A DNA stretch of 64,000 bases, taken from assembly GCA_020161135.1 (NCBI GenBank), contig JAIUOB010000002.1, positions 124,001 through 188,000 on the forward strand. Direction: 5' to 3'. The notes beneath the pieces are model-generated. The model saw only the letters and a program-made list of their open reading frames with translations, did not search any database and was not told the origin of the DNA. The translations under genes were made by a program, and so were the position numbers. The first letter of the stretch is position 1; each line of letters starts with the position of its first letter. This DNA comes from Gemmatimonadota bacterium. Its GTDB lineage: Bacteria > Gemmatimonadota > Gemmatimonadetes > Gemmatimonadales > Gemmatimonadaceae. Shown here piece after piece: positions 37,644 through 48,545 of this stretch.

Positions 37644-37658
37644 GCGTACGCGGGGAAA

Positions 37659-37801
37659 GGAACGACGGGAGCGGGACTGCGGGAGCGGGGCGACGGGAGC
37701 GCGGGACAACGGCGACCGCGGGTAGCACGGGAGCACCGTCGTCACCGTCGTCCCGCGGTCCCGCTCCCGTCGTTCCTCTTCCGCTCCTCCCGCTCCCGTG
37801 G
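37659..37801. repeat. Long intergenic palindrome A (26-bp arms, CGGGAGCGG-rich)
   Basis: The arm at 37659-37684 (GGAACGACGGGAGCGGGACT... ) pairs with 37751-37776 with one mismatch in 26. The 66-base interior holds a second copy of CGACGGGAGCG (37663 and 37691) and a shorter internal pairing (37701-37716 with about 37741-37756). The tail 37790-37801 is the complement of CCACGGGAGCGG, a word that also occurs in palindrome B at 47732-47743. It lies between an amidohydrolase gene and a B12-binding-type gene. No coding sequence seen. Confidence 0.8.
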
Positions 37802-37812
37802 TTTCCTATCGC

Positions 37813-38715
37813 ATGCGTACAATCTCCCTCCTCCCCGCGGCGACCGAGATGGTCGCCCTGCTCGGGGCCTCGGATCACCTCGTGGGCGTCACGCACGAAT
37901 GCGACTACCCCGACGTGGTCGCCTCGCGCGCGCGGGTGACGCGCAGTGCCCTGCCCGACACGCACGATCCGTCCGTCATCGACGCCGCGGTGCGCGCGCA
38001 GCATGCGTCGGGGCTCGCGCTGTTCACGCTGGACGAAGCGCGCATGCGGGCGTTGCATCCCGACCTGCTGCTCACCCAGGCGCTGTGCGACGTGTGCGCG
38101 GTGCGGGAGAGCGATGTGCGCGCGATCGCGGCACGCCTGTCACCGGAGCCGGCCGTCGTCACGCTCGGCGGCACGACGCTCGAGGGAGTGTACGCGGACA
38201 TTCGCGCCGTCGCGCACGCGCTGGACCTCGATGATGAAGCCGACGAATTGCTGGCCGGCCTGCAGGGGCGCGTGCGGCATGTGCACGAGGTGCTCAAGGC
38301 GGCGCAGGCGCCGCGACCGCGTGTCGCGCTCGTCGAGTGGACGTCGCCGGTGTATGCGGCCGGTCATTGGGGCCCCGAGCAGATCCGCCGCGCGGGGGGC
38401 ATCGATGTCGTGGGGGTGGCCGGCGCGCATTCGGTGCCGGTCGCGATGGACGCCCTCGTTGCCGCCGACCCCGAGATCGTCCTCTTTGCGCCGTGCGGCT
38501 ATTCGCTGCGCGCCGCGCGCGCCGAGGCCGAGCGGTGTCTGCAGCACGCCGACTGGCAATGGCTCGCCGGCCGCGCTGTCTGGGCGCTCGACGCCAACGG
38601 ACTCACGTCGCGCCCGGGCCCCCGCATCGTCGACGGCATCGAGGCGATGGCCAGCATCTTCGCACCGACCCTGTTCCCGCCCGTCAGCGCCGCCCACGCC
38701 GAGCGGGTGGCATAG
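37813..38715 (+). CDS. Cobalamin-binding / BtuF-like protein
   Basis: A 300-residue protein of the helical-backbone metal-receptor (class III binding protein) family: TISLLPAATEMVALLG, VGVTHECDYP, LLLTQALCDVCAVRESDV and EWTSPVYAAGHWGPEQIRRAGG. These match BtuF-type vitamin B12 binding proteins. No signal peptide is present, so this belongs to the cytosolic-looking BtuF-like group rather than the classic periplasmic receptor. The B12-dependent MetH in the window needs cobalamin, a loose connection. The ATG at 37813 is 11 bp after palindrome A. No BtuC or BtuD gene is nearby. Confidence 0.82.
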   Translation: MRTISLLPAATEMVALLGASDHLVGVTHECDYPDVVASRARVTRSALPDTHDPSVIDAAVRAQHASGLALFTLDEARMRALHPDLLLTQALCDVCAVRESDVRAIAARLSPEPAVVTLGGTTLEGVYADIRAVAHALDLDDEADELLAGLQGRVRHVHEVLKAAQAPRPRVALVEWTSPVYAAGHWGPEQIRRAGGIDVVGVAGAHSVPVAMDALVAADPEIVLFAPCGYSLRAARAEAERCLQHADWQWLAGRAVWALDANGLTSRPGPRIVDGIEAMASIFAPTLFPPVSAAHAERVA

Positions 38716-46109: not shown

Positions 46110-46787
46110 CTACCAGCGACGCAGCGTCGGCGCGGCCACGCGACGGCGCGCTACTGCCAGCAGCACCAGCCCGGCGATGCACAGCGTGAGCGTGGCCGGC
46201 TCCGGCACCGTGGTCGTGGGCGGCGCGGCGCGCACGAGCCAGCTTCCGAGCTGCCGGTCGTTGTCCTCGTCACCCCACCAGGCGTTGTCGATCAGCCAGC
46301 CGGCGTCGTCGCCCCACTGCACGAGCCCCACCGTGCGATGCGTGCCGGGCCCCCACACGCCCTCGTCGGCGGTGAAGCCCTGCGTCCGCGGACAGAACAC
46401 CGTGTTGTCGGCACACCACATGGCGTCGGCGGTGCCGAACCAGTTCAGGAACGACACCGCGGCCGTGTGCCCCGCGGCGCTGCCCGGGTAGTCGGTGGGG
46501 AACGGGCCGCCGAAGTTGGTGCCGATCATGGAGAGCACTTCGGCGCGCGTGGCGTAGCGGAAGCCGTGTGTGGCGGTGATGCCCTGGACGAGGGAGCTGT
46601 TGAAGGTCTCGTTGCGGGTGTAGACCGGGGTGAGCCACTGGAGCCCGGCGGCAGCGTCGGTCACCAGCAGCTGGTCGCCGGCTCCGAGAAAGTCGGCGAG
46701 GGAGAGCTGCGCGGCCGCGGGACGGGCGGCAGTCAGCAGCAGGCCGGAGACGGCGAGGAGGCGGCCGAGAGTGCGTGCGAGGTGCAT
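46110..46787 (-). CDS. PEP-CTERM sorting-domain protein (probable exosortase substrate)
   Basis: A 225-residue exported protein. The signal peptide is residues 1-26 (ending AAAQ). The C-terminus has the three-part sorting signal: TVPEPATL near residue 193, the hydrophobic [13 protein letters not shown], and the basic ARRRV end. In between is an extracytoplasmic domain with [17 protein letters not shown] and [14 protein letters not shown], of a type often seen in PEP-CTERM proteins. The exosortase at 1627-2526 would cleave it at the PEP motif. It is not linked to the EPS locus and is the only such protein in the window. The 190-bp spacer before it has no clear -10 at the leaderless distance. 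Confidence 0.9.
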
Positions 46788-46948: not shown

Positions 46949-46977
46949 TCGGGCGCACCCTCAACCCGGGATTTTCC

Positions 46978-47439
46978 GTGCCCAAGCTGGCCACCTTCGA
47001 GACCAACAAGGGGACGCTCGTCGCCGAGCTGTTCCCCGGTGAAGCGCCCAAGACCGTCGAGAACTTCGAGAAGCTCGCCAACAGCGGCTTCTACGACGGC
47101 ATCAAGTTCCATCGCGTCATCCCCGAGTTCGTCGTGCAGGGCGGCTGCCCGCACACGAAGGACGGCAAGGGGCCCGTGGGCACCGGCGGTCCCGGGTGGA
47201 AGATCAAGTGCGAGACGGCCGGCAATCCGCACAAGCACAACGTGGGCGCCCTGTCGATGGCGCACGCCGGCAAGGACACGGGGGGCAGCCAGTTCTTCGT
47301 GGTGCTGAGCGAGGCCAACACGCGGCACCTGAACGGGGTGCACACGGTGTTCGGCCAGGTGACCGAGGGGCTGGACGTACTGCCCTCCATCGCCCAGAAT
47401 GACCACATGGTGTCGGTCCGCGTGACCGACGTCGCCTGA
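46978..47439 (+). CDS. Peptidylprolyl isomerase (cyclophilin type)
   Basis: A 153-residue single-domain cyclophilin without signal peptide, so cytosolic. The active-site motifs are in place: [18 protein letters not shown] (with the catalytic Arg after FH), [19 protein letters not shown] and [15 protein letters not shown]. It speeds cis-trans isomerisation at proline. The GTG at 46978 was chosen because it leads directly into [15 protein letters not shown], the conserved first strand. The small membrane protein gene follows by 20 bp. Confidence 0.95.
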
Positions 47440-47459
47440 CACTCCCCCTGGACGAGACC

Positions 47460-47639
47460 ATGGCTGGACACGAACAGCACAGCGACAAGGGCGCCGCTTT
47501 CACGGGCCTCATCGGTGGCGTGATCGTCATCGGCGCGATCCTGTACGGGATCACGATGTGGACCAACGCGAAGTTCGCCGGCCACAAGGCCGAGGCGAAG
47601 ACCGGCGCGGTGACGGTGGTGGCCCCTTCGGTGGGCTGA
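47460..47639 (+). CDS. Small single-pass membrane protein (59 residues)
   Basis: An ATG at 47460 opens a 59-codon frame. The N-terminal dozen residues are His/Asp/Lys-rich (MAGHEQHSDKG). One hydrophobic segment follows at about residues 13-33 (FTGLIGGVIVIGAILYGITM), and then a tail of about 25 residues with four lysines. A purine stretch GGACGAGA stands just before the ATG as ribosome site. It sits 20 bp after the cyclophilin gene on the same strand, so it is probably in its operon. I know no family for it. Confidence 0.65.
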   Translation: MAGHEQHSDKGAAFTGLIGGVIVIGAILYGITMWTNAKFAGHKAEAKTGAVTVVAPSVG

Positions 47640-47732
47640 CGCGCTCCGGCGTGGTCAAGGAACGCGGCGATCGGTCAACATGACCGGTCGCCGCGTTTCG
47701 TTCGTGGGTGGCGAGGTGGGGGAGGGGCGAAC

Positions 47733-47863
47733 CACGGGAGCGGAACCACGGGAGCAGGAGGGGCGGGAGCGCAACGGCGAGACGACGGCGGGGACGGTCC
47801 GTGTTTGCCGTTGTCCCGTTGTTGCGCTCCCGCCCCTCCTGCTCCCGTAGTTCCGCTCCCGTG
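47733..47863. repeat. Long intergenic palindrome B (43-bp arms)
   Basis: The arm at 47733-47775 pairs with 47821-47863 with a single mismatch in 43 bases. Pairing continues imperfectly into the 45-base interior (about 10 of the next 14 positions). The arms consist of CACGGGAGC-type words and share CCACGGGAGCGG with palindrome A (37790-37801, opposite strand). It lies between the small membrane protein gene and the HD gene. No T-run follows. The rest of the spacer 47640-47921 holds nothing else obvious. Confidence 0.85.
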
Positions 47864-47921
47864 CTTTGCGGTCCCCGCCCCCATAGACGAACCCTTTCCC
47901 GTCCGCCACAATCCAAGAGCC

Positions 47922-48545
47922 GTGGACATCCCCTCTCGCGCCGACGCCCTCCGGCTGGTCCAGGACTGGACCGCCTCCGAATCCCTCCGCAAGCACATGC
48001 TGGCGGTGGAATGCGCCATGCGCGCCTATGCGACGCGCCTCGGGGAGGATGTGGAGCGGTGGGGGCTGGCCGGTCTGATCCACGATTTCGACTACGAGCG
48101 CTTCCCGAACGACGCGCAGGCGGCCGACGCCGAGCATCCGGCGGAGGGGGTCCGACACCTGCGTGCGTTGGGGTGGCCCGAGGACGTGTGCACGGCGGTG
48201 CTGGGCCACGCGCACTACACGGGCGTGCCGCGCGAGACGCGCATGGCACAGGCGCTGTTCGCGGTGGACGAACTGACCGGGTTGATCACGGCCTGCGCGC
48301 TGGTGAAGCCGTCCAAGGCGGTGCGCGACGTGGACGTGCCCGGCGTGCGCAAGAAGATGAAGGACAAAGCATTTGCCCGAGGTGTCAATCGGGACGACAT
48401 CGTGCAGGGGGCGGAGGCGCTCGGCGTCCCCCTCGACGAGCACATCGCGGTGGTCCTGACGGCCATGCAGGGAGACGCCGCGGCACTCGGACTGGCGGGT
48501 GTGGCGCCATCGTCCCCCTCAACGGGTCCGGACGGGGATGCGTAA
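47922..48545 (+). CDS. HD-domain protein
   Basis: A 207-residue protein starting with GTG at 47922. The HD metal-binding pair is in GLIHDFDYERFP, preceded by KHMLAVECAMRAYA (first His). A later GHAHYTG and DELTGLI complete the pattern of the small HD hydrolases. Such proteins are phosphohydrolases on nucleotides or similar compounds. CACAAT lies 9 nt before the GTG and is a weak -10 candidate. The ECF sigma gene follows by 74 bp on the same strand. The substrate is unknown. Confidence 0.82.
   Translation: MDIPSRADALRLVQDWTASESLRKHMLAVECAMRAYATRLGEDVERWGLAGLIHDFDYERFPNDAQAADAEHPAEGVRHLRALGWPEDVCTAVLGHAHYTGVPRETRMAQALFAVDELTGLITACALVKPSKAVRDVDVPGVRKKMKDKAFARGVNRDDIVQGAEALGVPLDEHIAVVLTAMQGDAAALGLAGVAPSSPSTGPDGDA

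Follow-up and report, generated by a model that had tools for sequence, protein, structure and literature searches.

How does a bacterial genome come to hold a nearly perfect stem of more than 40 base pairs between two co-directional genes, and what could such a structure do there? Bacterial DNA that contains long, nearly perfect stems is usually unstable. The palindrome that raises this question, palindrome B, lies in a window of 64,000 nucleotides (positions 124,001 to 188,000 of contig JAIUOB010000002.1, assembly GCA_020161135.1) from a member of the Gemmatimonadaceae whose genus is Gemmatimonas-like. The broader interest of the locus is that dozens of long stems built of short words occur per genome in this genus, at gene ends. 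Should they end or shield transcripts in the absence of a U-tract, they would represent a distinct way of ending transcription in a little-studied GC-rich phylum. The replacement of one word by another at constant positions would offer a direct test of how long RNA or DNA stems arise, stay paired and spread.

No inverted repeat in the window is longer than palindrome B

An ungapped-arm scan of positions 47733-47863 recovered, as the longest arms with at most one mismatch, a G-rich left arm at 47733-47775 and a C-rich right arm at 47821-47863 (plus strand), 43 bp each and with a single mismatch, as the first-pass annotation had described. B ranks first among the inverted repeats of the window, with 63-nt arms that are 89% complementary across a 17-nt gap, and has a palindrome score of 99; codon-shuffled controls yielded 0-1 palindromes with a score of at least 34 per four 20-kb stretches. 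The predicted minimum free energy (MFE) of the folded region is -146.4 kcal/mol, compared with -78.3 ± 4.5 kcal/mol for 200 dinucleotide shuffles (z = -15). The whole hairpin spans 47717-47883 (no strand assigned); the stem of about 131 bp originally delimited at 47733-47863 is thus real, but the full hairpin is wider. The left arm contains two tandem 14-bp units (ACCACGGGAGCGGA and ACCACGGGAGCAGG) at 47731-47758 (+), and the right arm contains family units as the reverse complement at 47841-47865 (-), with word starts at 47841 and 47855.

Upstream of B, on the plus strand, lie a gene for a cyclophilin-type peptidyl-prolyl isomerase (46960-47442) and a small open reading frame for a probable membrane protein (47460-47639), a further tblastn match of which adjoins the HD gene in one congener (G011). 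They are followed, 3' of this operon, by a separate classical-looking stem-loop (AACGCGGCGATCGGTCA...ACCGGTCGCCGCGTTTCG; 47661-47697, plus strand, palindrome score 27), which fails the T-run rule of the terminator search; the same search found no terminator-like sequence around B. The gene downstream of B encodes an HD-domain protein (47922-48545, +) and starts 38 bp past the hairpin; its named relatives belong to the Gemmatimonadaceae. On the minus strand, window positions 46110-46787 encode a protein that carries a PEP-CTERM sorting motif.

Palindrome A (37646-37820, no strand assigned), the second family member in the window, begins 2 bp past the stop codon of its upstream gene. The sequence CCACGGGAGCGG, found at 47732 in B, recurs as CCGCTCCCGTGG at 37790 in the outer right side of A, which bears out the proposed kinship of the two palindromes. 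The earlier remark that they stand close to the next start holds for both A and B but is not the rule in the family, which as a whole abuts stop codons. B is atypical in this respect, being preceded by a classical-looking hairpin and lying nearer the next start.

B belongs to a family of about 30 long hairpins

The host genome (4.55 Mb in 8 contigs, 93.6% complete) was sampled by stretches rather than read whole. A BLAST search of this genome with B returned 66 matches, both strands being counted and many matches representing one place twice. The matched places comprise 26 full palindromes, A and B included, and about six places with single-arm copies, all sharing a 14-bp unit, so that the repeat family suspected in the first-pass annotation does exist: B is one copy in an interspersed repeat family of long, non-coding hairpins with ~30 loci. 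The single-arm places (L024, L026, L031, L032, L033 at 1220-1290, and L035) carry only the C-rich arm on the plus strand, with no G-rich partner nearby.

Full copies are 106-303 bp long (median 161 bp), with a median MFE of -116 kcal/mol. Each copy consists of an array of tandem 14-bp units, ACNACGGGAGCGGA, with a variable third base, then a short loop and the reverse complement of such an array. The inner units are shorter, the spacing between words being 14, 9, 22 and 8, with a mode of 14, and the copy ends vary, often reading GGCGAACNACGG...CCGTNGTTTGCC. Arm autocorrelation is 0.49 at lag 14, 0.42 at lag 28 and 0.29 at lag 7; a strict heptad period was rejected for this family on the difference between lags 7 and 14.

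End-to-end identity between any two copies is at most 75%, and there is therefore no sign of a recent burst. The suggestion that the near-perfect stem is of recent origin is not supported by this comparison, nor by the finding that several congeners carry a hairpin at the corresponding site, made either of related words or of other ones. Arm likeness is 0.67 within a copy and 0.56 between copies, although the distributions overlap.

Long hairpins sit at gene 3' ends

Genes were called with a home-made codon-usage caller, by which gene starts are approximate; for the genes flanking 10 copies, a Pfam check supported the strand of most genes checked. Hairpins were counted with a BLAST-based palindrome score at thresholds of 34, 40 or 45. 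In the host genome, convergent spacers hold 13 of the 26 full copies; of the gene pairs used for comparison, 60 of 335 are convergent (p = 4e-4). The spacer that remains around these copies has a median length of 6 bp, whereas the median of ordinary convergent spacers is 47.5 bp (p = 0.0018). The bias extends beyond this word family. Among hairpins of all word families with a score of at least 40 and a clear context, drawn from unbiased samples of 800 kb from three congeners, 14 of 29 are convergent, versus 76 of 529 expected (p = 3e-5), and none is intragenic. All 13 co-directional hairpins in the three congeners are closer to the stop codon upstream than to the start that follows, as are 27 of 32 when the host genome is added (p = 1e-4). 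The median distance from hairpin to stop codon is a few base pairs. Long word-built hairpins, whatever their words, thus sit at gene 3' ends.

Divergent spacers hold four of the 26 full copies of the host genome (with the genes confirmed by Pfam), as many as expected by chance; one such copy (L012:1283-1423) lies upstream of rpsL, the gene for ribosomal protein S12, and has a protein kinase gene on its other side. At three loci (L014:1830-2004, L015:1225-1380 and L030:1250-1390), gene ends enter the hairpin and the stop codon apparently comes from hairpin sequence. In the samples of two congeners, long palindromes were much denser in the first 0.5-1 Mb of the chromosome than further on (G003, L095-L099 versus L100-L104; G001, L075-L077), a regional density that comes from few stretches and gives no more than a hint of proximity to the replication origin.

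A putative terminator or mRNA 3' barrier

The flush position of the copies, their sharing by convergent genes and the absence of room for another terminator argue that the family copies are putative bidirectional terminators or mRNA 3' barriers, a reading to which we assign a probability of roughly 0.5. Whichever strand is transcribed, a copy would terminate transcription or form a 3' barrier on the mRNA, and copies that fill a spacer would replace an ordinary terminator. For B, which follows another hairpin and precedes the HD gene by 38 bp, a terminator role may be redundant; B may insulate or modulate the HD gene instead.

The copies are not textbook intrinsic terminators, since none of the 52 ends of the 26 full copies has a run of at least four T within 12 nt. 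Against a terminator role also stand the four divergent copies, where it makes no sense, and, for B, the separate stem-loop at 47661-47697 between it and the upstream stop codon. Compensatory changes on both sides of the stem are likewise few, 1-2 per pair of sister species (G006/G008 and G019/G025), and wobble-type (G-U) mismatches number 45 in the sense and 41 in the antisense orientation; as they show no bias to the transcribed strand, no RNA-level selection is seen. On selection, earlier named as one possible cause of the near-perfect stem, the evidence points both ways: copies gather at gene 3' ends in a strongly nonrandom manner, but neither a U-tract nor a strand asymmetry of G-U wobbles accompanies them.

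Hairpins and words at orthologous sites

The exact two-unit array of the host genome was found in none of 84,980 species genomes (a set that may omit the host genome itself). Related versions of the hairpins occur in congeners, with ACNACGGGAGGGGA at a period of 14 in three of them (G015, G019 and G025) and GCTGG at a period of 15 in another (G001). Heptamer arrays of a related type (ACGGGAG) occur in other genera of the Gemmatimonadaceae, and a three-unit ACGGGAG array in 12 of the 298 Gemmatimonadota genomes, from 5 of 119 genera, some of these being plain heptamers.

Among the 26 congeners with sufficient sequence ahead of the HD gene, nine carry a palindrome there that scores at least 45 and is made of quite different words; because some of the nine are close sisters, they amount to about six independent lineages, and sister species are not independent of each other in any of these counts. 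The adjacent spacer between the HD and sigma genes has a palindrome in 0 of 27 congeners. Beyond the genus, a hairpin upstream of the HD gene is rare, being present at 2 of 53 loci at a score of at least 40, with L200, which is the G025 copy, left out. The 3' flank of another gene (L034, encoding an L-PSP family protein) has a hairpin in 8-9 of 25 congeners. Two congeners (G013 and G020; L055 and L057) have no hairpin upstream of the HD gene; they carry direct repeats in tandem there, with units of 14 bp (CCAACGCGTAGCTG) and 11 bp. Copy number differs between the two species, which are set apart by many 14-bp units.

A different picture emerged at L022, where a hairpin fills the convergent spacer between a thioesterase and a TonB-receptor gene in the host genome. 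The 3' flank of the thioesterase gene has a hairpin in 0 of 22 congeners, the best being a 49-bp palindrome with a score of 43, and in four of them (G001, G006, G008 and G009) the two convergent genes are separated by roughly 7-55 bp, without a long hairpin. L022 is thus a lineage-specific hairpin gain in the host lineage.

The hairpins upstream of the HD gene in G019 and G025 differ by 14-bp indels in both the left and the right arm; slippage in unit steps is therefore seen, both in these arms and between the G013 and G020 arrays. One-sided changes between G006 and G008 kept pairs about as often as they broke them. Elsewhere, stems are known to arise and to be mended by template switching (PMC8794818), and the arms may be repaired by this route; the sister species compared gave only one or two two-sided pairs, not enough to back template switching or RNA selection. 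A tentative and rather doubtful extension is that hairpins at gene 3' ends might be exchangeable cassettes in Gemmatimonas, whose place and structure persist while their 7-15-bp words are replaced or homogenised in each species by an undescribed copying between hairpins.

Origin and spread of the copies

Under the terminator or 3' barrier reading, the arms would change by one-unit slippage, with complementarity possibly kept in part by template switching during replication, and copies would spread within a species, perhaps by transposition in trans or by ectopic conversion from one hairpin to another. Such within-species spread would explain why each species has its own version of the word.

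A selfish MITE-like or REP-like element without function, inserting anywhere and surviving where it does least harm (in convergent spacers and behind stop codons), is a less probable but serious alternative. It would fit dispersed copies built on one common unit, the copies in divergent spacers and the absent wobble asymmetry, and a safe-haven model of this kind also explains much of the placement. The gain at L022, in an otherwise tiny spacer, is a presence/absence difference at an orthologous site of the kind that MITEs produce. Yet the flanks of the copies carry no signal of target-site duplication: the longest flank match is 4.08, equal to the 4.11 of permuted flanks, although a very short duplication could escape notice because the boundaries are fuzzy. 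No two copies exceed 75% identity, contrary to what a recent burst would predict, and the ~6 bp left by convergent copies provide no room for another terminator. Of the two enzyme classes searched, neither Y1 transposase (PF01797; 0 matches, with responding controls) nor reverse transcriptase was found in the host genome, which is 93.6% complete. The exact-word list contained no unit pairs 1-3 kb apart, a plasmid collection gave no match, and Rfam yielded nothing above gathering score, with sub-threshold matches to long hairpins of the microRNA type only.

Growth in situ is improbable. Ordinary terminators would here expand by slippage and template switching, and words would become common through local bias or conversion between sites. 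Hairpins of unrelated words at the orthologous 3' ends upstream of the HD gene and at L034, set against their absence from the HD-sigma spacer, would be expected from such growth, as would arm indels of unit size, the greater likeness of the two arms within a copy and the documented ability of template switching to make stems. However, independent growth cannot yield one 14-bp word at about 30 loci of one genome, most relatives lack at L022 a hairpin of any size as a starting point, and both-sided changes between sister species are few. It is very improbable that the hairpins are DNA-level sites (cruciforms, protein-binding sites or G-quadruplex-prone arrays) with a chromosome-organising role, as the very long G-rich and C-rich arms and the higher density in the first 0.5-1 Mb might suggest, because placement tracks gene 3' ends rather than chromosomal spacing and the regional density comes from few stretches.

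Comparison with known repeats and terminators

Intrinsic (Rho-independent) bidirectional terminators include clustered hairpins and hairpins without a U-tract (PMC8355165). Like these, the family copies, as candidate terminators, are GC-rich stems a few bases from a stop codon that are common to convergent genes; unlike them, they have stems of at least 50 pairs and a family-wide word and lack a U-tract.

REP elements, with their GTAG- and CGTC-tagged repeats (PMC3733652), RAYTs (PMC2817692) and REPINs (PMC3116915), offer a second comparison. As in REP, REPIN and BIME families, the palindromes are interspersed and non-coding, lie in unidirectional and convergent spacers, extragenic and mostly downstream of coding regions, and form species-specific families. 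In contrast to REPs, which are single stems of 20-40 bp, copies here measure 106-303 bp and have arms of tandem 14-bp units; their ends, read by eye, showed neither a GTAG or CGTC tag nor any other fixed unpaired tag; the genome is without a RAYT (Y1_Tnp); and copy number is far below that usual for REPs. A limited literature search returned no report of such hairpins in Gemmatimonas.

The construction of hairpins from short repeated words has a parallel in the P6b stem of the tRNA-Leu(UAA) intron of Nostoc and Calothrix, which consists entirely of 7-nt words, has 7- and 14-nt insertions and has seen word classes replace one another repeatedly at the same place (PMC4476775). That stem occupies one intron locus, whereas about 30 intergenic loci per genome, a 14-bp unit and gene 3' ends are involved here. 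Arrays of short words also occur in intergenic DNA as the tandem heptamer repeats of cyanobacteria, Xanthomonas and Beggiatoaceae (PMC4692102, PMC4679880). Those are direct repeats, and in Beggiatoaceae they lie near start codons, whereas the arrays described here form inverted pairs close to stop codons.

Random stretches of the host genome (L115-L134) and of three congeners (G001, G003 and G002; L075-L114) also hold many long palindromes between genes that belong to other, unrelated word families, with words such as CACAGAGG, CTCTGACCTC, CACAGAGGACACAGAGG, GGGGTCAGAGTT and heptads of AACTGAC and CCCATTA. Some of these words resemble repeats known in unrelated phyla.
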